The notes under the pieces are model-generated. The model had not been told where the DNA came from and ran no database searches. It worked only from the letters and a program-made list of their open reading frames with translations. Made by a program: the position numbers and the translations under genes. A stretch of 64,000 nt of DNA from Thermosulfurimonas marina (lineage in GTDB: Bacteria; Desulfobacterota; Thermodesulfobacteria; Thermodesulfobacteriales; Thermodesulfobacteriaceae): NCBI RefSeq assembly GCF_012317585.1, contig NZ_CP042909.1, positions 744,001-808,000 of the forward strand. Direction: 5' to 3'. The first letter of the stretch is position 1, and every line of letters begins with the position of its first letter. Below are positions 42,365 to 58,728 of the stretch, piece after piece.

Positions 42365-42614
42365 TGGGAAATTTCCAAAAGCTCTCCCAGGGTATCCGCC
42401 TTTAAATCTTCCCAGAAAAGGGCGAATTCCTAGTAAAGTCTTTAAACAAAGGTGGCAAGAGATAGTCGAAGAAGCCAAGCAAAAATTTGGAAAATTCTTG
42501 CCTGAGACTACTTGGTGGTATCTTGATGAGGTCGAGGCGTGTAACACGCACTTTATACGTCTCTTAGAAGAGGCCTTAACGATAAAAATAATACTACCCG
42601 GGTTCTCAAAAAGA
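42321..42614 (+). pseudogene. Hypothetical gene truncated by IS copy 1
   Basis: GTG start with GGGAGG upstream; 98 codons of own sequence (KFVFPLPWTSDGKFPKAL ... TTWWYLDEVEACN) before the frame enters the IS at 42615 and stops there at 42647. The family is not recognised. If IS copy 1, the nif block and IS copy 2 are removed, the frame continues open for 30 more codons from 58729, weakly hinting that it was the target of the insertion. Confidence 0.45.
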
Positions 42615-43872
42615 CATAGTGTTTCGTCAACTGTGTCCGCAGGATAAGAGGCCTTCCTCCATAAGATCCTCAAAACCTCTCAGTTTTCGCGAACGGTATT
42701 TCTCCTCTAGACCCCTAAGCACCAGATAGACTACCTTGTAAAGTGCCCCAGGCTCACAGAAAACCTCTATCACCTTGGTCCTGCGCTTGACCTCTTTAAT
42801 CAGCCTTTCAAGCTGATTCGTGGTGTAAATATAATTCCGAATAGGCTCCGGATATTCCAGAAAAACCAAGAGATCCTCGAGGTTCTCCTCCCAGTGCTTC
42901 ACTACTTCCGGATACTTCCCTTGCCACCGGGCCTTGAAAGCCCTGAAGGCCTCCAGGGCCTCGGACCTCCTCCCAGCCCGATAAATTTTCCTCAAATCCT
43001 GAGCCAGCGCCTCTCGGTGAGACCTCCGAACCTTCCTCAGGCTATACTTGAGACTGTGAAGAACGCATCTCTGAAACCTGGCCCCAGGATAAACCCTGAG
43101 AACCGCCTCCTTCAAGCCTGATAGCCCGTCCCCTATGACCACCTCAATCCTCTTGAGACCTCTTTCGCGCAGTTCGTTGAAAATTTCCTGATAAACCAGA
43201 GCGCTCTCACCTTCCCCTCCACTGGTCCAAAAGCCCACAATCTCTCTGGTCCCATCTCGCCTTATCCCCAAAGCCAGATACACCGGCTCCCTGGCCACAG
43301 TTCCTCTCCTCACCGGCAGAAAAGTAGCATCCAGATAAAGGGCAAAGTATTCCTCCGAAAGCCTTCGCTTTCTCCAGGACTCAATTTGGTCCTCGGCTAC
43401 CTCCGTTAGTCTGCTTATACTGGCTGGCGAATAGTAAGCCCCGTAAATGGTCTCGATAAATCTTGAAACCGCCCTGGTACTGGCTCCCGAAGCGTACAAG
43501 GCCAATACAGCTTCTCCCAAGTCGAGACCGGCTCTTCTCCTTGGAGGAGGTAGAATCTGAGCTCTAAAGTTTCCATCTCGAGTTCTGGGAACCATAAGGC
43601 CTTCAATAGGCCCGTATTTGGTGAGAAGGGAGCGAGAGTAGAAACCATTGCCTTTGGTTTCAGGGTGTTCCTCAAGGTAAAGGCTTCTTTCCTCAATAGC
43701 CAGTCGCTCAATCACGCTTTTAATGGCCTCCTTGATGAGGTCCTCCAGCTTTTCTATAATTTCTCTGTCCTGCATGGCCTTCCTCCTTCCCTTTGGTTTG
43801 ACTCCCACTTATTATCGCAAGGAGGAAGGCCTCTTTATTTACCCCCTCGGACACAATTTGTGAAACACTACC
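42615..43872 (-). mobile_element. IS256-family insertion sequence, copy 1
   Basis: 1258 bp shared with 57471-58728. Inverted ends AGTGTTTC...TGTGTCCG match at 18 of 22 positions (42618-42639 and 43848-43869); the shared identity extends 3 bases beyond at each side (CAT and ACC). No 8-9 bp target duplication is visible. One transposase gene on the minus strand. Confidence 0.92.
42627..43775 (-). CDS. IS256-family (mutator-type) transposase, copy 1
   Basis: 382 residues from the ATG at 43775, preceded by AAGGAGGAAGGCC; a GTG 11 codons upstream is possible. DDE residues: Asp in LYLDATFLPVR, Asp in VIGDGLSGLKEA and Glu in NQLERLIKEVKRR, in the mutator-type arrangement. Intact, so transposition is likely still possible. 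It differs from copy 2 by one base near the start (Asp instead of Gly in MQDREII). Confidence 0.93.
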   Translation of the reverse strand: MQDREIIEKLEDLIKEAIKSVIERLAIEERSLYLEEHPETKGNGFYSRSLLTKYGPIEGLMVPRTRDGNFRAQILPPPRRRAGLDLGEAVLALYASGASTRAVSRFIETIYGAYYSPASISRLTEVAEDQIESWRKRRLSEEYFALYLDATFLPVRRGTVAREPVYLALGIRRDGTREIVGFWTSGGEGESALVYQEIFNELRERGLKRIEVVIGDGLSGLKEAVLRVYPGARFQRCVLHSLKYSLRKVRRSHREALAQDLRKIYRAGRRSEALEAFRAFKARWQGKYPEVVKHWEENLEDLLVFLEYPEPIRNYIYTTNQLERLIKEVKRRTKVIEVFCEPGALYKVVYLVLRGLEEKYRSRKLRGFEDLMEEGLLSCGHS

Positions 43873-44562
43873 GACTATGACGTTATTGACCAGCGGTGTC
43901 TCGAAACCTCGGCCCGACTGAGGGAACAACTCCAGGCCCTCCTCTCTGGTCTCTCCTTTGAGCGGTTGATCGCTACCGGTTACGGCCGGAATCTGGCCAG
44001 GGAACTTTTCTGGGCCGAAACCCTAACCGAAATCAGGGCCCATGCTATGGGCGTGAGGAGCCTCTTCCCAGAAGCGAGGACCATCCTCGATATCGGAGGG
44101 CAGGACAGTAAGGCCATAGCCCTCGATCCCGAAGGACGGATAGTAAAATTCGAGATGAACGACCGCTGCGCCGCCGGGACGGGGCGTTTCCTAGAGGTCA
44201 TGGCGGAAGCTCTGAGCGTAGAGCTCGAAGAACTGGCCGAACTGGCCCTTAACACAGATCACGCGGCCAACATCAGTGCCCTGTGCACGGTCTTTGCCGA
44301 AAGCGAGGTGGTAGGCCTTATCGGACGGGGAGAAGAGCTGGACCGAATCGCCCGTGGGATCATTTCCTCCATCGTTAAGCGCTCCCTGACCCTCCTGAAT
44401 CGTATCTCCCCTGTCCCGCCCTTGGTTTTCACCGGTGGAGTAGCCCGTAACCGGGCCGTGGTGAAAATTCTCGAGGAAGAACTGGGGTTCCCGGTCTTAG
44501 TTCCCGAAGACCCGCAGATCACGGGCGCTCTCGGGGCGGCCCTTTACGGGATGAGAATTTAA
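43873..44562 (+). pseudogene. CoA-dehydratase activase (BadF/HgdC type), 5' end removed by IS copy 1
   Basis: The frame is open from the IS edge: DYDVIDQRCLETSARLREQL...LIATGYGRNLA, then DIGGQDSKAIAL, CAAGTGRFLEVMA, LCTVFAESEV and FTGGVARN. Activases normally begin with a GIDxGS phosphate-binding loop about 30-50 residues earlier; that part is missing because the IS starts there. An internal TTG at 43966 exists but would not restore it. Probably non-functional. Related domains occur in the fusion at 30618. Confidence 0.8.
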
Positions 44563-45467: not shown

Positions 45468-45806
45468 TTAAATAGCGGCCTCTCCCCGTTCGCCGGAGCG
45501 TATCCTGAGGGCCTCAATGACCTCATAGACGAAGATCTTTCCGTCTCCGATCTCGCCGGTACGGGCCGCCGAAGCGATGGCCTGCATAATCTTTTCCACA
45601 TCTTCGTCCTTACAGACCACCTTCACTTCTATTTTGGGCAAGAGATCCACCCGGAATTCCCGTCCCCGGAACTGTTCCACCAGGCCGGCCTGCCGCCCGT
45701 GACCCTCCACCTGATAGACCGTGACCCCGGGATGGCCCACTTTTTCCAAAGCCGCCAAAACCTCCTCCATTTTTTCTGGTCTAATGATGGCTCTTATTTC
45801 CTTCAT
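45468..45806 (-). CDS. glnK: PII signal protein (GlnK type), T-loop Tyr replaced
   Basis: 112 residues: MKEIRAIIRPEKMEEVLAAL, T-loop GHGRQAGLVEQFRGREFRVDLLPK, and DGKIFVYEVIEALRIRSGE. PII proteins sense ATP/ADP and 2-oxoglutarate and plug AmtB when ammonium is high. The residue at the uridylylation site (Tyr51) is Phe here, so control by uridylylation is unlikely. It lies 4 bases after amtB. Confidence 0.92.
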   Translation of the reverse strand: MKEIRAIIRPEKMEEVLAALEKVGHPGVTVYQVEGHGRQAGLVEQFRGREFRVDLLPKIEVKVVCKDEDVEKIMQAIASAARTGEIGDGKIFVYEVIEALRIRSGERGEAAI

Positions 45807-45810
45807 GGTC

Positions 45811-47193
45811 TTACCTCCTTACGGTATAGAATTCGGGATAAGCCGGGGTACCGTGTTCCAATAGATCAAGCCCCTGAATCTCCTCTCGCGGAGAGACCCG
45901 AATACCGATAAGAACATCTAGGAGCTTGAAGAGGATAAGCCCCACGCCAAAGGCCCAGACGAATAGGGCCCCCGCTCCGATCAGCTGGGCGATGAGCTGA
46001 TCTACCCCGCCCCCGTAGAAGAGTCCCTTCACGAAGGGAGGTTCGATGGCGTAGTTTCCGTAAGTTCCATCGGCAAACAGACCCACGGCGATAAGACCCC
46101 ATAGGCCGTTAAAACCGTGTACCGGGACGGCTCCCACCGGGTCATCAACCTTTATAGCCTCAAGGAAATAGACCCCGGCCACAAGGATGATACCGGCCAC
46201 CACCCCGATCACCACCGCGGCCCAGGCCTCAACCCAGGCACAGGGAGCGGTAATGGCCACCAGGCCAGCAAGCACGCCGTTCAGGGCCATACCCAAGTCG
46301 AACTTCCGGGTCTTGGCGAGCACGATGAGAAGCGCAGTTAGAGAGGCCGCCGCGGCCGCAAGGGTAGTATTCACCGCGATCACCGAGATGCGCAGATGAT
46401 GGGCAGAAAAGGTAGAACCGGGGTTGAAGCCGTACCAGCCGAACCAGAGGATGAAGACCCCGAGCGTAGCCAACGGGATGTTGTGGCCGGGAATGGCCCG
46501 GGGTTTGCCGTTTTTGTCGAACTTCCCAAAACGCGGCCCGAGAACGATGGCCCCGGCAAGCCCCACCAAACCTCCTACGGCATGCACCACACCGGAGCCC
46601 GCGAAGTCCAGATGTCCGAGACCAAAGGGAAGCTTCGAAAGCCAGCCCCCACCCCAGACCCAGTGGGCGTAAACCGGGTAGATGAAACCGGTAATCGCTA
46701 TGGAATAAAGGAGATAAGCCTGAAACTTGATACGTTCGGCCACGGCCCCGGAGACGATGGTCGCCGCCGTGGCGGCAAAGACCATCTGCCAGAAAAAGGA
46801 AAGGTAGTTGCCGACATCGTAACCCTGACCAGAGAGGAAAAAGCCCGAGGTCCCGATGAGGCCCTTCCAGTCCGTGCCGGTAATCAGGGCATAACCCACG
46901 GCCCAGAAGGCCAGTGCCCCCACCACAAAGTCCATGAGGTTCTTGGTTAAGAGATTGGTGGCATTCTTGGCCCGGCAGAAACCGGCCTCCACACAGGCAA
47001 AGCCCGCCTGCATGAACATCACCAGGAATCCGCACACCAACACCCAGACATAGTCCACCGGAAGCCCAGGGTCGGACTTCAGGGTTTCGGCCCCGGTGGG
47101 GTCCCCGGCCAGGGCCATCCCTGAGCCCAGTAAAAACACCGCCGATAAAATCGGCCCAACCCTTTTACCCGAATAAAACCTGCCACTCTCCAT
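45811..47193 (-). CDS. amtB: Ammonium transporter AmtB
   Basis: 460 residues with a signal peptide (to about GMALAG), then 11 membrane segments. AGFACVEAGFCRAKN, the DFAGSGVVHAVGG segment (first pore His) and the PVHGFNGLWG segment (second pore His) are typical. The ATG at 47193 has AGGAGGTAGGT upstream and lies 24 bases after the expected start site of a sigma-54 promoter; the ATG 13 codons upstream would overlap that promoter. Confidence 0.94.
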   Translation of the reverse strand: MESGRFYSGKRVGPILSAVFLLGSGMALAGDPTGAETLKSDPGLPVDYVWVLVCGFLVMFMQAGFACVEAGFCRAKNATNLLTKNLMDFVVGALAFWAVGYALITGTDWKGLIGTSGFFLSGQGYDVGNYLSFFWQMVFAATAATIVSGAVAERIKFQAYLLYSIAITGFIYPVYAHWVWGGGWLSKLPFGLGHLDFAGSGVVHAVGGLVGLAGAIVLGPRFGKFDKNGKPRAIPGHNIPLATLGVFILWFGWYGFNPGSTFSAHHLRISVIAVNTTLAAAAASLTALLIVLAKTRKFDLGMALNGVLAGLVAITAPCAWVEAWAAVVIGVVAGIILVAGVYFLEAIKVDDPVGAVPVHGFNGLWGLIAVGLFADGTYGNYAIEPPFVKGLFYGGGVDQLIAQLIGAGALFVWAFGVGLILFKLLDVLIGIRVSPREEIQGLDLLEHGTPAYPEFYTVRR

Positions 47194-47228
47194 ACCTACC
47201 TCCTCCTTCGTTTTTACCAATCTTGAAT

Positions 47229-47243
47229 ACAAGATTTATGCCA
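47229..47243 (-). promoter_or_regulatory. Sigma-54 promoter for amtB-glnK-porin
   Basis: TGGCATAAATCTTGT on the minus strand matches the -24/-12 pattern TGGCAY-N5-TTGC at all but the last base, with correct GG-N10-G spacing. Transcription should start near 47217. Confidence 0.7.
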
Positions 47244-47436: not shown

Positions 47437-48711
47437 TTATAGGGCTTTAAGGCGCCACACCGGAGCCCGAAGAACGCGGACCAAACTATAAACAAAATTG
47501 ACAAAACCTTGATAACCGGTGTAGGGGCCGCGTCTGCGCTCTTGAGGAAAAGAGAGGGTGGGAAAACCAAGTTTTACCGCTCGCCACTGCTCTCGGGCGT
47601 TGGTGATCACGAGATCGGGCTTAAGCATAGAAAGGGCCCTTTCAAATTCGTCATCTCCGGGATCATCGGTAAGAAAACCGGAAAAGGGAGCGGCTTCTCG
47701 GTGATCTTCGGAACTCCCGAAGACCGAAGCCGCCCCTATGACCTCAAAGCCGAGTTCTCTAAGCATTCTCCCTAAAGGTCCCAGTCTACCGGCCCCAAGT
47801 ACCACAAGCACTCTTTTTCCTTCAAAGAGTTTAAGCCAGGACCTTATCTCCCTAAAGGTCCGGGTCTCCTCCTCCCGGATCAGGCCCTCCACCTTGGCAG
47901 AAGAGAGGCCCAGGGCCTCTCCTACCTTCCGAAGAGAAGCCCCCACGGCCGAAAGCCCATAAAAGGAGACCTTTAGGTATGGAAGACCAAATCGCTCCTT
48001 CAGGGCCGAGGCAAACTCCCTAGCGGTTGAACCGCAGAAAAGGAGATTCAGATGGGCCCGGGAAAGTCGCTCTATCTCCGAAAAACGGGTATCACCGGTA
48101 AGCACCGTGTGCACCTTAACCCCAAGTTTCTCAAGAAGTCGTTTTATCTCCCGGGCCTCTCCAGCCACATTGTACTCTCCGATGAGGTTTACCGTGGGGT
48201 GCTCGGCCTTGGAAAAGGGCCGAACCAAGTTAAGCAGACTCCGGTAGGCCACAGCATGGCCCCCGGCCTGGCTCTTTCCGGAAAACCCCGGACAGTCCAC
48301 CACCACGATCCTGCGTCTAGATTCTCTCTCGATTTCGCGGGCAAGGCCTGCAAGATCTTCCCCGATAAGCCCCGTTGTGCAGGTAGCGTATAGAAAGGCC
48401 CCGCGGGCCGAGGGTCTAAGGGCGAAGGCCTCACGCAGGGCCTTCCTCAGTTTATCAAGACCTCCGAAAATAATCTCTCCAGCTGTAAGTGCGGTCCCAA
48501 AGAGGTCTTTGGCCTCCCCCCGGACCATAGCTCCATAGTAACCGCAGCCCACGGGGCCATGCACCAGATGCACCGCCTCCCGTATCGGCCCGAGCACATA
48601 GCGGGCGCCGAAATAAACGCAGCTTCGCTGGGTCATGCCCCCAGGTTCGCTCGCAAGACCGCAGGGCTTGATTCTCAAAGGCATACAGCCGTAATTTCCG
48701 CAAGACTTCAT
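47437..48711 (-). CDS. nifE: Nitrogenase cofactor scaffold protein NifE
   Basis: 424 residues. It has cluster-ligand cysteines at RSCVYFGAR, GPVGCGYYG and CTTGLIGEDL, but the HGPVGC/GKSQAGGH pattern and the absence of a cofactor Cys/His pair like NifD mark it as NifE. It would host FeMo-cofactor maturation. NifN, its normal partner, is not in the window. It follows nifK by 14 bases; last gene of the operon. Confidence 0.85.
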   Translation of the reverse strand: MKSCGNYGCMPLRIKPCGLASEPGGMTQRSCVYFGARYVLGPIREAVHLVHGPVGCGYYGAMVRGEAKDLFGTALTAGEIIFGGLDKLRKALREAFALRPSARGAFLYATCTTGLIGEDLAGLAREIERESRRRIVVVDCPGFSGKSQAGGHAVAYRSLLNLVRPFSKAEHPTVNLIGEYNVAGEAREIKRLLEKLGVKVHTVLTGDTRFSEIERLSRAHLNLLFCGSTAREFASALKERFGLPYLKVSFYGLSAVGASLRKVGEALGLSSAKVEGLIREEETRTFREIRSWLKLFEGKRVLVVLGAGRLGPLGRMLRELGFEVIGAASVFGSSEDHREAAPFSGFLTDDPGDDEFERALSMLKPDLVITNAREQWRAVKLGFPTLSFPQERRRGPYTGYQGFVNFVYSLVRVLRAPVWRLKAL

Positions 48712-48725
48712 TCTATTCCCCTTTA

Positions 48726-50198
48726 TTACTGATGCGTCCGGTCGTCCGGATAGTGATGATCCAGGATGGCGTTTACGATCCGGGCCAGAAAACGTTCTCC
48801 CCCCCGATAGCCCACGATGGGTTCCCGTTGATAGCCTATCCGGTCATAAACCGGAAAACCAAACCGGACAAGCGGCACCTTTATCTCTTTCGAAATATTT
48901 ACACATCGCGAGTGTCCCAAGATCACATCCGGCTTGTCGTTCTTAAGGGCGTATTCCCATTCGAACTGGTCGCTACCGTTCATGATGACCGGTTTGTAAT
49001 TATATTCCTCACATACTTTCCAAATCTCTTCCGCAGCTGAAGAACTCTTGGTACCCACGAGAATGTAAGTTGGAATCATACCGAGTTCGCAGACGAAGCG
49101 CGTGGCCGCGGCCGCAAAATCCGGGTCGCCGCAGATGGCTACCTGTTTCATCATGGTGTAGTGCAGGGTATCGGCCATGGCGTCAAGGAGGATGCCCCGT
49201 TCCCAGCGTATAGCCTCCGGAATGGGCCGCCCTGAGACCTCACTTACCGTTTTGAGGAGCTCATCGGTATTGCCCACCCCTATAGGCATAGGAAGCACAA
49301 AGGCCGGCACCTTGTGACGACGGGAAAGCCATTTCGCGCCGGCTCCGCCGGCATCCGGCGAAAGAGCGAAAATAGCCTTCGCATCTCCGGCCCGCACGAA
49401 CTCCTCTACCCGGGTACCTCCCGGAGGATAATAGGGGATCCTATTGGGCATACCCACCAGCGGACAGTCGAGAGTGTCACTTATATCAAAGAGGATATGA
49501 GAAGATACCCCCATGAGCTCAAAGAGATGTTTTAACTCCCGCAAATCTCCGGGCATGAGAAATCCGGGGATGAAGTATAGGTCTTCGGAAGGTTGACCGC
49601 TCTTGCGGGAAAGGGCCTTGAGGAACTCGCGTGCGGCCCGGTTGTAGCCCTCCACGTGGGATCCGGCAAAGCTCGGGGTGTTTACCACCACAAACTTCGT
49701 AAGATCAAGCACCTCCGGTCCGAATTCTTCCTCCATAAGGTCCAGGGCCTCGGCAAGAAAACTCTGGATGTCATCTCCGATGACCTCACTTGAACAGGTG
49801 GTAACGATAGCGATGAGCTCCGGTTTATAGCGGCAGACCAAGTTCCGCACTCCGCGAATAAGGTTCTTACGGCCACCGAAGACCGCGGCATCTTCATGAA
49901 AGGAGGCCGTAGCGATAGAGGCCGGTTCACGGAAGACACGGGAAAAAGTATAACGCACGTAAGTGGTGCAACCCTGGGCTCCCTGTACAAAAGGAATAGC
50001 CCTATGTACCCCCAACGTAGCCCACATGGCCCCGAAGGGCATACAGGTGCGGCTGGGATCAATACAAACTGCCCGTTTGGCAGCCGGCACCAGCTCTGGA
50101 GGTGGTGGAACATATTCCGGCGTCAAAGGCTTCTTTTCTATGCGGAGTTGTTTATAGGTTATCCCTTCTATGGGTATTTCCGATACGTGGTTTATCAT
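48726..50198 (-). CDS. nifK: Nitrogenase MoFe protein beta chain
   Basis: 490 residues. P-cluster ligands: Cys in RTCMPFGAMWATLG, Cys in GAQGCTTYVRYTFSRVFREP, Cys in TTCSSEVIGDD. SFHEDAAVFGG and NTPSFAGSHVEGY are typical of NifK. It pairs with NifD and holds the shared [8Fe-7S] P-cluster. It is shorter than Azotobacter NifK (523), as in other anaerobe enzymes. It is 20 bases after nifD. Confidence 0.93.
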   Translation of the reverse strand: MINHVSEIPIEGITYKQLRIEKKPLTPEYVPPPPELVPAAKRAVCIDPSRTCMPFGAMWATLGVHRAIPFVQGAQGCTTYVRYTFSRVFREPASIATASFHEDAAVFGGRKNLIRGVRNLVCRYKPELIAIVTTCSSEVIGDDIQSFLAEALDLMEEEFGPEVLDLTKFVVVNTPSFAGSHVEGYNRAAREFLKALSRKSGQPSEDLYFIPGFLMPGDLRELKHLFELMGVSSHILFDISDTLDCPLVGMPNRIPYYPPGGTRVEEFVRAGDAKAIFALSPDAGGAGAKWLSRRHKVPAFVLPMPIGVGNTDELLKTVSEVSGRPIPEAIRWERGILLDAMADTLHYTMMKQVAICGDPDFAAAATRFVCELGMIPTYILVGTKSSSAAEEIWKVCEEYNYKPVIMNGSDQFEWEYALKNDKPDVILGHSRCVNISKEIKVPLVRFGFPVYDRIGYQREPIVGYRGGERFLARIVNAILDHHYPDDRTHQ

Positions 50199-50218: not shown

Positions 50219-51649
50219 TTAAATTTCGTTACGGGCCAGTCGCCATACCGGGGCACAAACCGCTTGGTAAATGTCTCGAGCAAAGTTCACAAACCCGCGG
50301 AAACCAGCGTACGGCCCGGCTTCGTAAGAATGTGAATTGAGGGTCGGCACCCCAAACTTACGCACAAGGTACTTCTCCTTAAGACCGGTGAGGAAAAGAT
50401 CGGGTTTACAAGTCTCGATCATCTCTTCGATCTCGAACTCGTTGGGATTATCGATAACGAGAGTTCCCGGTTTTACGCGTTGGACGATCTTCTCATAGTC
50501 CTCTTTGTGTCCAAAGGTGGTCATACAAGCCACCACCTCCATCCCGAGTTCCTCCATTACCTTTGGCCAGTGCCACACCCGTGGAGCTCCCACGTAAATG
50601 GCCACCCGCTTTCCGGAAAGTCTTTCTCGATACCAGGAAAGAGCCTTCTCTATAGCCGCGGTCTCCTCCTCGATAATTTCCTCGGCCCGACGCTTCATCT
50701 TCTTTTCTCCGAACCAGGCCGCTACATCTCGTAGCGCCTTTGCGGTCTGGGAGATTCCGAAGAGGCTCACACGGACAAAAGGAATCTCGTAGCCCTCCTT
50801 TAGAAGTTCCGCGATGTAGGTAGCCGAACGTTGACAGTGAACAATATTCAATTTGGCATCCGGAAGCTTTAAAAGGTCATTGAGACGGGCATTCCCCGTA
50901 AAGACATTGAGAATCCGCAGACCCAACTTCTCAAAAAGCGGCACTACCGTAACCAAGTCCCAGTCAATGTTGTAATCACCGATGAGATTGACATCATAGG
51001 GTGTCTTCTCCTCTTCCTTCATACATACTTCCGGATGTTTCTCACGATACTTAAGAAGCCACCGGTAAAACTGAGTGTTAAATTCATGGTGTCCCTTGGA
51101 CTGAGAGACTCCACAAAAACCCGGAGAGGCACAAGCAAAGATGGGCTTGCCCACCATTGCAGATACCTCTCGAGCCACCTGTTCGATATCATCCCCAATA
51201 AGGGCGGTGGAACAGGTGTTATAGATAATGGCTCCCTGAGCACCGGGATTGATGCGAAAGGCCTCAAGTAGGGCCCTCTTCAGTTTTTCCGCACCGCCGA
51301 AAATGATATCTTGTTCGGTCATGGCCGTGGTGTAGCAGTGGCGGCGGTGGTTGGCCTCGTTTTCAAGCACTCCGGGAGCGGCCCAGTTGTAAACGTCTCC
51401 TAGATGGCGGCGCGTGCCCCAGGTGTAATAACCGCAGCCTACCGGGGCGTGTATCATCTGAATTACATCCGTAATTGGTCCGCCCACGACCCCGCGGGCC
51501 CCGGCAAAGGCTCACCCACGCTCCGTAAGATCACCCGGTACGGTAGGAGCATTACATCTGGGTATGGTCTTCCTGTCCTCATCTACGATGCAAACATGCT
51601 TTATCCTTTCAGGGATGCAGGCATCACATTTCATCTGATAGTAACCCAT
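50219..51649 (-). CDS. nifD: Nitrogenase MoFe protein alpha chain with in-frame TGA at the first P-cluster cysteine
   Basis: 476 codons from ATG at 51649, preceded by GGAGGGACGCC. The N-terminal part MGYYQMKCDACIPERIKH...PGDLTERG is followed by TGA (51512-51514), then AFAGARGVVGGPITDVIQMIH without any other stop. NifD has Cys (alpha-Cys62) at precisely this point (RGCAYAG). Other ligands are present: Cys88 and Cys154 equivalents (PVGCGYY, NTCSTAL), the cofactor Cys in NIVHCQRS, the His in NSHSYEAGPY and Gln-x-x-x-His in SQSKGHH. Either selenocysteine, a nonsense mutation or a sequence error. Initiation at GTG 51487 would lose a P-cluster ligand. Confidence 0.85.
51482..51499 (-). promoter_or_regulatory. 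SECIS-like stem-loop after the nifD TGA
   Basis: On the minus strand GCCCGC-GGGGUC-GUGGGC can form six pairs (one G-U); the stem starts 13 bases and the loop 19 bases after the TGA. Bacterial SECIS hairpins lie at about this distance with a G early in the loop; the E. coli fdhF loop is also GGUC. GC-rich coding sequence readily forms such hairpins, so support is limited. Confidence 0.35.
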
Positions 51650-51669: not shown

Positions 51670-52503
51670 TTAAGATATGGCAGCCGCCCATAGAATTGTC
51701 TGTAAGGAATCGCCTTCACCTGGAACACCAGCGGCATCGGCCCGGCAGCGCCGACAAGAGAGAAACTGAGGCATGAACCGGGAGGCCAACCGTCTAGCCC
51801 AGCGGAGTTCGGCCTCCGTGGGTGGCCGCCGGTCACGAAAACGTCCCAGAGGAATGAGGGGGATGATGTTCATGAGATGGGCCCCGGTCTCCCATACCCT
51901 ACGGGCAATTTCACCTACTTCCGCATCATTTATTCCCGGCACGAGCACGGTGTTGACCTTGATCCGGATACCCGCCTTCGCGGCCTCCCTCAAACCTTCC
52001 ATCTGGCAAGAAAGAATCGCTTCTGCGGCCTCTTTTCCGGTAAGCTTCTTCCCCTGGTAACGCACCCAAAGGTAGAATTTGGAGGCGGTCTCTAGGGTGG
52101 CAGCGTTCACCGTAACGGTAAGAAACTGTACTCCAAGAGAAACCAAGTCCGGGAGTTTTTCTTTGAGTAAAAGACCGTTGGTGGAAACGCAGAATTTGAG
52201 TCTCGGAAAGGCCTCTCGCACCCGTGAGAGTGCCCGAAAAGTCTCTTCGTTAGCCAACGGATCTCCTGGGCCGGCCACACCTATCACCTCTATGCGAGGT
52301 TCAAGCGTAAGGGCCATCTCCACATAGTCTGGAGCCTCTTCAGGAGGGATTACCCGGCGCGCGGTCCCGGGCCGATTTTCACTCACGCAGGGATACCGTC
52401 GATCACAATAGGCACACTGCACATTGCACCGCGGAGCTACCGGAAGGTGAAGTCTTCCTACTGTCCGATGAGCAGTCTCATCAAAACATGGATGTCTGAT
52501 CAT
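51670..52503 (-). CDS. nifB: FeMo-cofactor biosynthesis radical SAM protein NifB
   Basis: 277 residues from ATG at 52503 after GAAAAGGAGGTTATCAA. HPCFDETAH is the NifB N-terminal cluster motif, CNVQCAYC the radical SAM CxxxCxxC, and the C-terminal SCRRCRADA holds further cluster cysteines. It makes the NifB-co [8Fe-9S-C] core. It has no NifX-like C-terminal domain, as in archaeal and thermophile forms. Position between nifI2 and nifD is unusual. Confidence 0.93.
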   Translation of the reverse strand: MIRHPCFDETAHRTVGRLHLPVAPRCNVQCAYCDRRYPCVSENRPGTARRVIPPEEAPDYVEMALTLEPRIEVIGVAGPGDPLANEETFRALSRVREAFPRLKFCVSTNGLLLKEKLPDLVSLGVQFLTVTVNAATLETASKFYLWVRYQGKKLTGKEAAEAILSCQMEGLREAAKAGIRIKVNTVLVPGINDAEVGEIARRVWETGAHLMNIIPLIPLGRFRDRRPPTEAELRWARRLASRFMPQFLSCRRCRADAAGVPGEGDSLQTILWAAAIS

Positions 52504-52525: not shown

Positions 52526-52903
52526 TTAGAAAAGGGCCTCAAGGCCCTCCTCACCGTTGCGGACTCTAAAGACCCCTTCCATCGGGAGCACAAAGATCTT
52601 GCCGTCTCCGTGCTCACCGCTCTGATTTACTCGAATAATTCTTTCCACTACCTTGGGAACCATGGCCTCCGGCACCACTACCAAAAGGAGCCTTTTGGGT
52701 ATGAAACCATAAGAGGAAGTCTCGAGCTTTTCGGCCACTTCAGGGCTTACCCTATAGGCGAGTTCCTTGAGCCTTCCTCCCTGTTTTCCTCGGCCAAGCA
52801 CCTTAAAGGCCGTAAAGGAGGGAAATCCCATCTCCTCCAGGGCCTTCTTGGTGGCAAGCATTTTGTTGGGTCTCACAATGGCTATAATCTCCTTTAAGGC
52901 CAT
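52526..52903 (-). CDS. nifI2: Nitrogenase-associated PII protein NifI2
   Basis: 125 residues. PII core (IIAIVRPNKMLATKKAL, DGKIFVLPMEGVFRVRNGE) with a long, altered T-loop (GRGKQGGRLKEL...SYGFIPKRLL) typical of NifI2. NifI1-NifI2 complexes block dinitrogenase in response to ammonium, relieved by 2-oxoglutarate, in methanogens and anaerobic bacteria. 10 bases after nifI1. Confidence 0.9.
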   Translation of the reverse strand: MALKEIIAIVRPNKMLATKKALEEMGFPSFTAFKVLGRGKQGGRLKELAYRVSPEVAEKLETSSYGFIPKRLLLVVVPEAMVPKVVERIIRVNQSGEHGDGKIFVLPMEGVFRVRNGEEGLEALF

Positions 52904-52913
52904 GATTCACCTC

Positions 52914-53231
52914 CTAGAGTTCGGCCTTTCCGGTGCGGATGGTATAGGCCTCTTCCACCGGCGAGACAAAGATCTTGCCATCTCCGAAGCGCCCGGTGCG
53001 GGCGGCCTCCATAATGGTAGTACAGACCCGCTCGACCTCTTCGTCCGGAACCACCAGGAGAAGGAGGCTTTTGGGGAGCTCGTCGTAAACCACTTCTCCC
53101 ACCGTAAGGCCCCCCTGCTTTCCTCGTCCTACTACGTCCACCCTGGTTAGGGCCAGAAAGCCCTCCTGGGCCAGGGCCTCCACCACCTCTTCCGTCTTTT
53201 CCGGTCTTATGACGGCTTTGATCATCTTCAT
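52914..53231 (-). CDS. nifI1: Nitrogenase-associated PII protein NifI1
   Basis: 105 residues with MKMIKAVIRPEKTEEVVEAL and DGKIFVSPVEEAYTIRTG, and a short T-loop GRGKQGGLTVGEVVYDELPK lacking the uridylylated Tyr, the hallmark of NifI1. It lies between nifH and nifI2, the classical place for these post-translational switches. Start after AAGGAGGCAAATC. Confidence 0.92.
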   Translation of the reverse strand: MKMIKAVIRPEKTEEVVEALAQEGFLALTRVDVVGRGKQGGLTVGEVVYDELPKSLLLLVVPDEEVERVCTTIMEAARTGRFGDGKIFVSPVEEAYTIRTGKAEL

Positions 53232-53261: not shown

Positions 53262-54170
<909 letters not shown>

Positions 54171-54214
54171 TTAAGGCTTTCGCGGTGTACGGGACCTCTT
54201 ACCAAAACCGACTG

Positions 54215-54253
54215 GTAGGTTTTGCGAGTTTAATTTGTAGGATTTGCAAGTTT
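54215..54253. repeat. Paired 17-bp direct repeats, candidate NifA enhancer sites
   Basis: GTAGGWTTTGCRAGTTT occurs at 54215-54231 and 54237-54253, 22 bp apart (two helical turns), between the divergent nifH and nifV sigma-54 promoters. The classical TGT-N10-ACA NifA site was not found here. Confidence 0.55.
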
Positions 54254-54262
54254 CTTAAAAAG

Positions 54263-54278
54263 TGGAATGTTTTTTGCA
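54263..54278 (+). promoter_or_regulatory. Candidate sigma-54 promoter for nifV
   Basis: TGGAATGTTTTTTGCA has GG and GC at the required 10-base spacing; the bases after GG deviate (AAT instead of CAY). The start site near 54289 leaves a very short leader. Confidence 0.6.
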
Positions 54279-54292
54279 TTTTATTTTTGGTG

Positions 54293-55408
54293 ATGAGGCT
54301 CATGGACACCACCATAAGGGAGGGGACTCAGCGCTGGGGGGTGTATTTTCCGTTCAGGGTGAGGAGGGAAATTGTGAGGCGTCTTGCGGATCTGGGGGTT
54401 GAGGAAGTGGAGCTCGGAGTGGTGGGAGAGGAAAGGCTGCGGGTTCTGATCCTTTCCGCCCGTAGGGTGTCTAAGAGGGTGAGATTCAGCGTATGGTTGC
54501 GTTTAAAAAAAGAAGATATAGAGAAGGCCGCCCGGTTGCCGGAAGTGGGATTTAATCTTGGAGTACCAGTTTCGGATATCCAGCTCAAACGCCGGCTTCG
54601 TTTAGATCCCGAGGTCCTTCTTAAAAAGACGGAGGAGATGATATCGCTAGCCGCGAGATACTCTCCATGCGTCACCCTGGGGCTTGAGGACGCTTCTCGG
54701 GCTGACAGGATTTTTATTTTTCAAATTTGTAGAGTGGCCATTTCATCCGGAGCACAACGGATAAGGATCTCGGATACCCTAGGGCTTTTCAATCCCTTGG
54801 AGGTAGCGGAACTCATCCGAGCCCTCAAGAAGGCTTTTCCAGAAACCGAAATAGGGTTTCACGGCCACAATGATTTCGGCCTAGCCACAGCCAACGCCGT
54901 CTCTGCCCTTGCCGCCGGAGCCGACTGGGTGGATGTAAGTGTTCTGGGACTAGGGGAGAGGGCCGGCATTGCCTCCCTTGAAGAGGTGCTGGCCTATCTC
55001 TATTTCCGAAAAGGTCAAAAACATTATCGTATAGAGCTTCTTCCGAAACTTTCTCATTATGTAGCCTGGCAAGCCGGTGAGGTTATTCCAGAATTCAGGC
55101 CTGTAGTAGGCCGGAAACTCTTTTACTGCGAAAGTGGCCTTCATGTGGAAGGTCTCAAAAAGGCCCCAGAACTCTATGAACCTTTTCCCCCGGAAGCCCT
55201 GGGACTGAAGAGGGAACTATCGCTCGGGGCCAAAAGCGGACGGGCGGCCCTGAAGGCCTTGCTTAAGGAGTGGAAACTTGAATTCCCTGAAGAGAAGCTC
55301 GAAAGCCTGGTAAAAAAGGTCCGCAAACTCTCCTCCAAACTGGGCCGGCCGCTAAATAAACAGGAAGTGGAAAAGTTGGTTAGGATATACTGGTTTAACA
55401 TTTGTTAG
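54293..55408 (+). CDS. nifV: Homocitrate synthase NifV
   Basis: 371 residues from ATG at 54293 (MRLMDTTIREGTQ); ATG at 54302 is as likely given the promoter position, while the longer frame from 54164 would overlap the promoter. REGTQ (with Glu as metal ligand, as in homocitrate synthases), SDTLGLF, FHGHNDFG with metal His pair and GLGERAGIASLEEV are family motifs. It makes homocitrate, the organic ligand of FeMo-cofactor. Divergent from nifH, followed by nifA after 24 bp. Confidence 0.88.
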   Translation: MRLMDTTIREGTQRWGVYFPFRVRREIVRRLADLGVEEVELGVVGEERLRVLILSARRVSKRVRFSVWLRLKKEDIEKAARLPEVGFNLGVPVSDIQLKRRLRLDPEVLLKKTEEMISLAARYSPCVTLGLEDASRADRIFIFQICRVAISSGAQRIRISDTLGLFNPLEVAELIRALKKAFPETEIGFHGHNDFGLATANAVSALAAGADWVDVSVLGLGERAGIASLEEVLAYLYFRKGQKHYRIELLPKLSHYVAWQAGEVIPEFRPVVGRKLFYCESGLHVEGLKKAPELYEPFPPEALGLKRELSLGAKSGRAALKALLKEWKLEFPEEKLESLVKKVRKLSSKLGRPLNKQEVEKLVRIYWFNIC

Positions 55409-55432: not shown

Positions 55433-56989
55433 ATGAAAAATCTAGAAGCCCTAAAATTAGAAGTTCTTTACGCCACCCATGAACTTATAGGACAGGCCCT
55501 AGAGCTTGAGAAAACCCTACGCAGGATCCTCCGTATCCTGGCGGAAAAGCTCGATATGAAAAGGGCTTCCATAGTCTTATGGGACGAGGCTTCAGGACAC
55601 TTGAAGATTAAGGCTTCTTATGGCTTGAGTCCGGAAGAAGAGGCGCAGGGGATTTATGAAATCGGGGAAGGCGTGACCGGGAGGGTCTTTGCTACCGGAG
55701 AACCCTGCATAGTCTCCGATGTGAGCCAAGAGCCGCTCTTTTTAAACCGCACCGGTGCCCGGCGCCTTACCAAGGAGGTGATTTCCTTTATCGCAGTGCC
55801 CATCCGGGCCGAGCATGAAACCTTGGGTGTCCTATGGGTGGATAGGCTCTTCAGCTACCAGGTGGCCTTTGAAGAGGACGTGAAGTTCCTAGAGGTCATG
55901 GCCTTTCTGATTGCCCAGTTTGTGAAGCTCAAAAGGAGCGTGGAGGCCCGGGAGACCCACCTCCGGGAGGAAAACTTGGCCTTAAGGGACGAACTTAAGG
56001 CCCGCTTCAGTGAGTTCATGTATGGGTCTCGTAGCCCGAAGATGAAAGAGGTCTTGAGTCTGGTGAAACAGGTAGCTCCAGCTCGGGCCACGGTGTTGCT
56101 CCTCGGGGAATCCGGCACAGGTAAAACCCTTACGGCCAGACTCATACATGAACTCAGCCCCAGACGCGGAAAGCCTTTCGTGAAAGTTAACTGCGCCGCC
56201 CTTCCGGAAAATCTCCTTGAGGCTGAACTTTTCGGTTACGAACGAGGGGCCTTTACCGGAGCAGATCGCAGCAAGCCCGGACGCCTGGAGCTCGCTGACG
56301 GAGGCACGGTCTTCCTAGACGAGATCGGGGAACTGCCGCTACCGCTTCAGGGCAAACTCCTGCGTTTCATTCAGGAGCGGGAATTCGAACGCTTGGGAAG
56401 CACTAGGACCCGGCGGGTGGATGTGCGCATCATTGCGGCCACCAACAGGGATCTAGAAAAACTCGTCCGCGAAGGGGCCTTCAGGGAGGATCTTTTCTAC
56501 CGGCTCAATGTCTTTCCCATCTATATCCCCCCTCTTCGTGAGCGACGAGAGGATATTCCGGGATTGGTCAAATTCCTCCTGCACCGCATGGAGAAGACCC
56601 ATGGAAGAGGCTTGATTCTTTCCCCAGGGGCCTTGCGGAAACTGGTAGAATATCCCTGGCCTGGAAATGTGCGAGAGCTAGAGAATGTCCTTGAAAGGCT
56701 TTTTATCGTGGCTGAGGAAAACCTGGTACCTGAGGCCTTGGTTTCCCAGCTTTTGAGTCTTGAAGAAAATCTTAAGAATGGTGGAAAGAGGAGGAACCTA
56801 ACCACCGAGGTCTTTTTAAAAGAACCTTCCGCTGACGAAATCTTGGAGGCCTTGCGCCGTAACAACTTTGTTATCGCCCGTGCGGCCCGGGAACTAGGGC
56901 TTACCTTCCGACAACTCCGCTACCGTATCAAGAAGCTGGCACTCGAAAACCACTTCCCCATCCGCCGTGGCCGACCACCCCTAAAATGA
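55433..56989 (+). CDS. nifA: NifA-type sigma-54-dependent activator
   Basis: 518 residues: GAF domain (~15-170), AAA+ domain (~200-430) with GESGTGKTL, the sigma-54 contact loop GAFTGA and VFLDEIGELP, and a C-terminal Fis-type helix-turn-helix (NNFVIARAARELGLTFRQLRYRI). The linker before the HTH has no CxxxxC pair of oxygen-sensitive NifA proteins, as expected where NifL or another sensor, or simple anaerobiosis, gives control. It should drive the promoters at nifH, nifV and amtB. Confidence 0.9.
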   Translation: MKNLEALKLEVLYATHELIGQALELEKTLRRILRILAEKLDMKRASIVLWDEASGHLKIKASYGLSPEEEAQGIYEIGEGVTGRVFATGEPCIVSDVSQEPLFLNRTGARRLTKEVISFIAVPIRAEHETLGVLWVDRLFSYQVAFEEDVKFLEVMAFLIAQFVKLKRSVEARETHLREENLALRDELKARFSEFMYGSRSPKMKEVLSLVKQVAPARATVLLLGESGTGKTLTARLIHELSPRRGKPFVKVNCAALPENLLEAELFGYERGAFTGADRSKPGRLELADGGTVFLDEIGELPLPLQGKLLRFIQEREFERLGSTRTRRVDVRIIAATNRDLEKLVREGAFREDLFYRLNVFPIYIPPLRERREDIPGLVKFLLHRMEKTHGRGLILSPGALRKLVEYPWPGNVRELENVLERLFIVAEENLVPEALVSQLLSLEENLKNGGKRRNLTTEVFLKEPSADEILEALRRNNFVIARAARELGLTFRQLRYRIKKLALENHFPIRRGRPPLK

Positions 56990-56996
56990 AGGAGGT

Positions 56997-57470
56997 CTAT
57001 AAGGTATCTATGATTCCGGCGATATACTCCAGGGCCTCTTCGCGGGTCTTTACCCGGCCCTCAACCTGGGCCTCCTCTACGGCTTCAAGGAGTTTCCGGA
57101 AGATGGGACCAGGCGCAAGTCCGAAGATCTCTATGAGGTCACGGCCGGTAACCAGTCTCTTCCTCTCCACCTTCCGCAAGGTTTCTCGGTAAAACTCGTG
57201 GAGTTCCCTAAAAAATTCTGCAAGTTTTTCCTCTTCGTCTGGGTCCTTGTCCGGACCTCTCGCCGCCAGACCATCTGCCATGGCCACCACAAAGAGATCG
57301 GGATACTCTGGAACATCCCTCAAAAGCCTCCTCTTGGCCCTGGCTGTAAGTCGGCCTTTTTCTTTTTCAGCAAGTAAATGAAAGGGCCGCATGTGGTTCC
57401 GGATGAGATGGGCTACTCTTTTAGCGAGATCCTTCTTGAAACGCAATCGTTCCGCCATCTCAAGAAAGAT
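56997..57470 (-). pseudogene. HD-domain tRNA-nucleotidyltransferase-like protein, 5' end removed by IS copy 2
   Basis: 158 residues ending the C-terminal half of a CCA-adding/poly(A) polymerase-type protein with HD domain: FLEMAERLRFKKDLAKRVAHLIRNHMRPFHLL and the late GRDLIEIFGLAPGP with KTREEAL. The nucleotidyltransferase head is missing. The ATG at the junction is provided by IS DNA. No remainder is found beyond IS copy 2. Confidence 0.78.
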
Positions 57471-58728
57471 CATAGTGTTTCGTCAACTGTGTCCGCAGGA
57501 TAAGAGGCCTTCCTCCATAAGATCCTCAAAACCTCTCAGTTTTCGCGAACGGTATTTCTCCTCTAGACCCCTAAGCACCAGATAGACTACCTTGTAAAGT
57601 GCCCCAGGCTCACAGAAAACCTCTATCACCTTGGTCCTGCGCTTGACCTCTTTAATCAGCCTTTCAAGCTGATTCGTGGTGTAAATATAATTCCGAATAG
57701 GCTCCGGATATTCCAGAAAAACCAAGAGATCCTCGAGGTTCTCCTCCCAGTGCTTCACTACTTCCGGATACTTCCCTTGCCACCGGGCCTTGAAAGCCCT
57801 GAAGGCCTCCAGGGCCTCGGACCTCCTCCCAGCCCGATAAATTTTCCTCAAATCCTGAGCCAGCGCCTCTCGGTGAGACCTCCGAACCTTCCTCAGGCTA
57901 TACTTGAGACTGTGAAGAACGCATCTCTGAAACCTGGCCCCAGGATAAACCCTGAGAACCGCCTCCTTCAAGCCTGATAGCCCGTCCCCTATGACCACCT
58001 CAATCCTCTTGAGACCTCTTTCGCGCAGTTCGTTGAAAATTTCCTGATAAACCAGAGCGCTCTCACCTTCCCCTCCACTGGTCCAAAAGCCCACAATCTC
58101 TCTGGTCCCATCTCGCCTTATCCCCAAAGCCAGATACACCGGCTCCCTGGCCACAGTTCCTCTCCTCACCGGCAGAAAAGTAGCATCCAGATAAAGGGCA
58201 AAGTATTCCTCCGAAAGCCTTCGCTTTCTCCAGGACTCAATTTGGTCCTCGGCTACCTCCGTTAGTCTGCTTATACTGGCTGGCGAATAGTAAGCCCCGT
58301 AAATGGTCTCGATAAATCTTGAAACCGCCCTGGTACTGGCTCCCGAAGCGTACAAGGCCAATACAGCTTCTCCCAAGTCGAGACCGGCTCTTCTCCTTGG
58401 AGGAGGTAGAATCTGAGCTCTAAAGTTTCCATCTCGAGTTCTGGGAACCATAAGGCCTTCAATAGGCCCGTATTTGGTGAGAAGGGAGCGAGAGTAGAAA
58501 CCATTGCCTTTGGTTTCAGGGTGTTCCTCAAGGTAAAGGCTTCTTTCCTCAATAGCCAGTCGCTCAATCACGCTTTTAATGGCCTCCTTGATGAGGTCCT
58601 CCAGCTTTTCTATAATTTCTCTGCCCTGCATGGCCTTCCTCCTTCCCTTTGGTTTGACTCCCACTTATTATCGCAAGGAGGAAGGCCTCTTTATTTACCC
58701 CCTCGGACACAATTTGTGAAACACTACC
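57471..58728 (-). mobile_element. IS256-family insertion sequence, copy 2
   Basis: Same 1258-bp sequence and orientation as copy 1 (42615-43872); the only difference noticed is one base in the transposase start region. Such identity implies recent movement or recombination. No target duplication seen at its edges or between the outer edges of the two copies. Confidence 0.92.
57483..58631 (-). CDS. IS256-family (mutator-type) transposase, copy 2
   Basis: 382 residues, starting MQGREIIEKLEDL; intact DDE residues as in copy 1. Either transposase could act on all four ends, so the 13.6-kb nif block together with both IS copies could move as a composite transposon. Confidence 0.93.
   Translation of the reverse strand: MQGREIIEKLEDLIKEAIKSVIERLAIEERSLYLEEHPETKGNGFYSRSLLTKYGPIEGLMVPRTRDGNFRAQILPPPRRRAGLDLGEAVLALYASGASTRAVSRFIETIYGAYYSPASISRLTEVAEDQIESWRKRRLSEEYFALYLDATFLPVRRGTVAREPVYLALGIRRDGTREIVGFWTSGGEGESALVYQEIFNELRERGLKRIEVVIGDGLSGLKEAVLRVYPGARFQRCVLHSLKYSLRKVRRSHREALAQDLRKIYRAGRRSEALEAFRAFKARWQGKYPEVVKHWEENLEDLLVFLEYPEPIRNYIYTTNQLERLIKEVKRRTKVIEVFCEPGALYKVVYLVLRGLEEKYRSRKLRGFEDLMEEGLLSCGHS

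Follow-up and report, generated by a model that had tools for sequence, protein, structure and literature searches.

The nifD gene of Thermosulfurimonas marina raises the question of how a frame with a stop codon inside it may give a nitrogenase component 1 alpha subunit. It lies in a window of 64,000 nucleotides, the whole stretch of DNA that was analysed. On direct reading the gene runs on the minus strand from an ATG at 51649 to a stop codon at 50221-50219, and the sole internal stop of the frame is a TGA at 51514-51512, codon 46, preceded by PGDLTERG and followed by AFAGARGVVGGPI, AFAGARGVVGG beginning right after the stop. The gene and its signals are:

50219 to 51649, minus strand: nifD, nitrogenase component 1 alpha subunit, 476 aa with predicted selenocysteine (Sec) at residue 46 (translation; TIGR01862; PDB relatives)
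51512 to 51514, minus strand: in-frame TGA, putatively read as Sec, at the P-cluster ligand position alpha-Cys62 in A. vinelandii numbering (sequence; numbering from PMC3760896)
51655 to 51663, minus strand: nifD ribosome-binding site AAAGGAGGG (sequence; similar in relatives)

The ribosome-binding site lies ahead of the ATG that the initial annotation had taken as the start, and the protein scores 542 bits against NCBIfam TIGR01862 (cut-off 486). The initial annotation had also placed the TGA at a P-cluster cysteine, which is borne out by direct reading and by alignment, as the solved nitrogenase alpha chains have a Cys aligned with residue 46, that is, the UGA stands at a Cys conserved in the homologues. 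The nearest solved relative, PDB 9spz (match spanning residues 3-473), belongs to the same protein family, being a Nif-III-like NifD, and has Cys62 where the window gene would have Sec. Howard et al. in 2013 matched residue 46 of the Nif-III NifD to the P-cluster ligand alpha-62 of Azotobacter (PMC3760896).

We hold it highly probable that this UGA is recoded as Sec by the SelA, SelB, SelD and tRNA-Sec of the host under the direction of a hairpin, giving a full-length NifD with a selenolate as P-cluster ligand at alpha-62. Sec insertion, selenium ligation of the P-cluster and nitrogenase activity are all predicted here from sequence. Sec, which the initial annotation had put forward as a possibility, is by far the best reading because the machinery is present, the TGA at the Cys position is conserved over long evolutionary distances, the hairpin is under synonymous constraint and the downstream part of the gene is under purifying selection. 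It is established for bacteria that SelB-GTP-Sec-tRNA binds such a hairpin and decodes UGA. In nifD the same complex would bind the hairpin during translation and decode the UGA, and the alignment suggests that the selenolate of residue 46 would replace the alpha-Cys62 thiolate as P-cluster iron ligand.

The gene lies in an operon-like series on the minus strand in the order nifH, two P-II (nifI) genes, nifB, nifD, nifK and nifE, followed by amtB and a further P-II gene; a nifV-like and a nifA-like gene lie upstream of the operon and divergent from it:

45468 to 45806: P-II gene adjoining amtB (by sequence)
45811 to 47232, minus strand: amtB ammonium transporter, downstream of nifE (profile search)
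47437 to 48711, minus strand: nifE-like gene (profile search)
48726 to 50198, minus strand: nifK, component 1 beta subunit, with Ala at the beta-92 position, GAQGC (profile search)
51670 to 52503, minus strand: nifB, radical-SAM domain only, start inferred at an internal ATG (TIGR01290 265.7 bits, below the full-length cut-off)
52526 to 52903, minus strand: nifI-type P-II regulator (profile search)
52914 to 53231, minus strand: nifI-type P-II regulator (profile search)
53262 to 54095, minus strand: nifH, nitrogenase iron protein (TIGR01287 461 bits, above the cut-off)
54164 to 55408, plus strand: nifV-like homocitrate synthase, start uncertain (profile search)
55433 to 56989, plus strand: NifA-like sigma-54 activator (519 bits against a cut-off of 528.85)

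The profile searches agree with the earlier statement that the other nif genes look intact, in so far as nifHDKE, nifB and the nifI genes are concerned. No nifN adjoins nifE and none was found genome-wide above the TIGR01285 cut-off, the lone match, below the cut-off, being nifK itself. A nifE without nifN, together with the position of the window NifD close to those of Thermodesulfatator and Desulforudis in our tree, places it in Nif Group III. It may be noted that the nif island is flanked by two insertion elements of 1.27 kb (42604-43872 and 57458-58728), 99.8% identical and in direct orientation, each with a 393-aa transposase, in a layout that resembles a composite transposon. Matching target duplications were sought by eye at these elements and none was seen. 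Apparently truncated genes abut both elements (43966-44562 and 56997-57473); one is an ATPase-activator-like frame that lacks a proper start, the other an HD-domain-like frame.

The genome of the host is a single contig of 1.76 Mb. The initial annotation had pointed to selA, selB, selC and selD as the genes to look for, and selA, selB, selD and tRNA-Sec(UCA) were all found in it (SelA 620 bits; SelB 379 bits against a cut-off of 242; SelD 360 bits; tRNA-Sec with UCA anticodon 83.9 bits). Also, the selD gene has an in-frame TGA of its own and therefore, by the usual inference, the host decodes TGA as Sec in one further gene at least. Near-cognate tRNA readthrough does occur in bacteria, by which a Trp or Cys tRNA instead of tRNA-Sec might suppress the nifD UGA; with tRNA-Sec(UCA), SelA, SelB and SelD all present, an in-frame TGA in selD and a SECIS-type element after the nifD TGA, we regard such suppression as very improbable. 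Sec machinery was found in nearly all the other genomes examined that carry a TGA-nifD. In one of these, a metagenome-assembled genome (MAG; G413), no SelA and no tRNA-Sec were found, possibly because it is incomplete. The machinery by itself proves nothing, as three relatives (G065, G101 and G155) have a Cys NifD despite SelA, SelD and tRNA-Sec.

The TGA was then compared among relatives. A nifD is present in four of the six genomes of the genus, the window's included, and each of these nifD genes holds a single TGA, always at this codon; the two genomes without nifD are fragmented assemblies, 89-90% complete. A second genus of the family (G028) has TGA at this codon as well, with a NifD 98.5% identical to that of the window. 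G028 appears to be the genome of Thermosulfurimonas dismutans, because a locus of T. dismutans S95 (L044) sits in a genome whose tRNA and selA coordinates match those of G028. T. dismutans is said to grow diazotrophically, its N2 use not having been analysed in the original description (both PMC4911364). Four genomes from a second family of the order share the TGA too. For pairs in which dS was computable and unsaturated, dN/dS past the TGA is 0.03-0.12, and selection on this part of the gene, as estimated from these alignments, is strongly purifying. These results bear on both alternatives named in the initial annotation. TGA is one base away from the Cys codons TGC and TGT, and a nonsense mutation could thus have turned nifD of this strain or lineage into a pseudogene. 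However, every congener with a nifD has the TGA and it recurs in further genera and phyla, the other nif genes are intact, the low dN/dS extends downstream and the synonymous freeze described below would require a positive explanation, so that inactivation has almost no chance of being the correct account. A sequencing or assembly error at 51512-51514, possible in principle only, has an even smaller chance, since independent assemblies from isolates and metagenomes have the same TGA. The retention of the TGA across relatives and the low dN/dS therefore effectively exclude that the codon arose by a recent nonsense mutation or through faulty base calling.

A recoded UGA in bacteria is followed just downstream by a hairpin (bSECIS) with a G at the start of its loop, the loop being about 16-37 nt away. 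The corresponding features in nifD are:

51482 to 51499, minus strand: SECIS-type hairpin GCCCGCG-GGGU-CGUGGGC, 7 bp (fold; synonymous freeze of codons +5 to +11)
51479 to 51499, minus strand: seven codons, GCC CGC GGG GTC GTG GGC GGA, nearly invariant (TGA genes of Thermodesulfobacteriota and Bacillota)

The 18-nt GCCCGCGGGGUCGUGGGC (51499-51482) folds into this 7-bp hairpin at -12.2 kcal/mol (z -3.1 against 18-mer shuffles); it spans 13-30 nt downstream of the TGA and its loop, GGGU, starts 19 nt past it. We replaced the energy-based SECIS test with synonymous recoding by a test of synonymous conservation, in which TGA genes of Thermodesulfobacteriota were compared with those of Bacillota at about 60-66% protein identity, where synonymous sites are saturated. 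Codon identity reaches 0.88 in the best 8-codon window against a background of 0.42, and this peak, at codons +5 to +11, ranks first of 339 windows. No identity peak is seen at these codons in pairs of TGA and Cys genes or among Cys genes. In the recoding free-energy test TGA and Cys genes did not differ significantly, and the 42-nt stretch with the hairpin folds no better than its shuffles. The evidence for the hairpin is therefore the synonymous freeze and not the energy, and the element resembles a bSECIS in geometry, loop position and synonymous freeze. It shows no compensatory covariation because it hardly varies. Two Cys62 genes nearest to the Sec genes (L099 and L102) keep the SECIS block with one synonymous change each; from their sequences these blocks are likely relics of a lost SECIS, and the genes recent Sec-to-Cys reversions.

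The initial annotation knew of no described Sec in nitrogenase, which proved wrong on two counts. Howard et al. (PMC3760896) predicted Sec at alpha-62 of NifD in three Nif-III species in 2013, and Table 1 of a 2026 selenoproteome inventory lists 'Nitrogenase component I subunit alpha' (TIGR01862, motif RxU, WP_153802866.1; PMC13188914). As far as the parts of the inventory available to us go, this entry is of the same family and RGU context as the window gene and comes from GenBank annotation only, without analysis of distribution or origin. The Sec62-NifD of Howard et al. is like that of the window in residue, Nif-III type, lack of nifN, Sec machinery and a claimed bSECIS; the window gene is from a different organism and genus. 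Also, section 13 of their paper names the amber codon TAG for Sec, whereas all the Sec nifD genes here have TGA. They further report that Sec62 covaries with beta-Ala92, all other sequences having Gly or Ser (PMC3760896). This covariation is not upheld by our data. Ala92 is found in NifK of all readable Sec Nif-III loci, the window's included, and also in 13 of 13 Cys Nif-III loci, and is therefore not diagnostic of Sec62. Of nine phylogenetically independent pairs, one or two at most show Ala92 changing along with Sec. Ala92 is not a marker of Sec, though its presence may be permissive.

To see how far the feature extends, about 85,000 species genomes were scanned for the RG-TGA-NifD motif, which gave 18 stretches, 16 of them NifD-like frames with TGA at the site. 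Of the other two, L045 (Phycisphaeraceae) was rejected as a chance pattern match, and L037 (Desulfofundulus australicus) was left uncounted as a broken nifD fused to an unrelated frame; at 2743-2907 in L037, the opening 55 or so codons of a TGA-type nifD are joined to a homocitrate-synthase-like frame. The scan missed at least one true case (L087, with SRDVVGG), so the counts are lower bounds. With extra searches in related groups, the set came to 61 distinct homologues, of which 26 have TGA, and predicted Sec nifD is far more widespread than the three species of 2013.

Three loci of Candidatus Aquicultor and relatives (Actinomycetota; L028, from G413, L029 and L074) have TGA at the same place in a NifD only about 38-40% identical to that of the window; nifH precedes the gene, and nifK follows it in those stretches that reach far enough. 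Their closest Cys relatives in the set, at about 60-65% identity, are NifD from other families of the window's phylum. An Aquicultor genome (G414) has SelA, SelD with TGA and tRNA-Sec. A link between Sec and the absence of nifN was considered and rejected, as the Aquicultor-lineage genomes have a long NifEN-type frame above the NifN cut-off. NifK of this lineage has Ala at position 92 in both readable cases, against Ser in eight Cys relatives. Sec in this canonical-type NifD apparently had an independent origin, as judged by its sequence relationships. A further actinobacterial locus, L030, comes from the same class and encodes NifD of a third type, again with TGA, among nifHDKEN-like neighbours; its NifK has Ser at position 92, its genome has SelA, SelD and tRNA-Sec, and a hairpin of similar geometry follows the TGA. 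We grade it as a probable Sec NifD only, because it comes from a single MAG and its nearest relatives (62-63%) have no stop at that position.

In a maximum-likelihood tree of NifD, at least nine Sec/Cys changes are forced by well-supported branches. A second tree, from which the Sec site, the 16 codons after it and three rows were left out, again gave nine changes, seven of them inside Nif-III, and a single Sec clade was rejected (p-AU 8e-10). These nine are gains and losses mixed, and the tree does not give the number of gains; horizontal transfer is a possible contributor to the pattern. A Cys62 NifD in a different family (L047, in G065), 82% identical, is nested within the Sec clade, and by its placement reads as a reversion, which may have followed horizontal transfer. 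Conversely placed is G880 (L087 / L107), where a TGA nifD that has Asp for Gly in its SRDVVGG motif and is followed by a different hairpin lies inside a Cys-rich group, a possible regain of Sec. On balance we lean towards several independent recruitments of Sec to the same P-cluster ligand: in Nif-III, in the canonical-type Aquicultor NifD and possibly in L030, with loss and perhaps regain within Nif-III.

The repeated switching also suggests that both residues are workable, and the UGA comes early in the gene, at codon 46, a point made by Howard et al. (PMC3760896). Both would suit a UGA that serves mainly as a regulatory switch, full-length NifD being made only with sufficient selenium and the chemistry of the Sec ligand being incidental. 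We consider this unlikely, since the TGA falls on the metal-ligating Cys in every one of the Sec lineages recovered here (our scans were aimed at this site, so this is no strict test) and its return to one position in NifD of different types speaks for a chemical role. For Sec as a P-cluster ligand, why selenium is favoured is a matter of speculation: it might tune P-cluster redox or the exchange of ligands, play a radical role, or tie NifD synthesis to selenium supply.

No report of Sec in an actinobacterial NifD, or of a Sec nitrogenase in purified form, was found in the open-licence literature, and what is added here to earlier work appears to be the Aquicultor lineage, a count of the Sec/Cys switches, the synonymous freeze and the finding that the Ala92 rule fails. 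Few metalloenzymes have been studied as much as nitrogenase, yet nowhere in that literature is the predicted selenium-ligated P-cluster described as isolated. In such organisms, genome annotation may present NifD as a truncated protein or its gene as a pseudogene. The larger set now offers close Sec/Cys pairs, cultured hosts (Thermosulfurimonas, Desulfofundulus) and an apparently independent origin, and the effect of selenium on electron transfer to the cofactor is therefore testable. If the repeated recruitment is true, selenolate ligation of the P-cluster would be a selected chemical variant of nitrogenase and not the frozen accident of one lineage.
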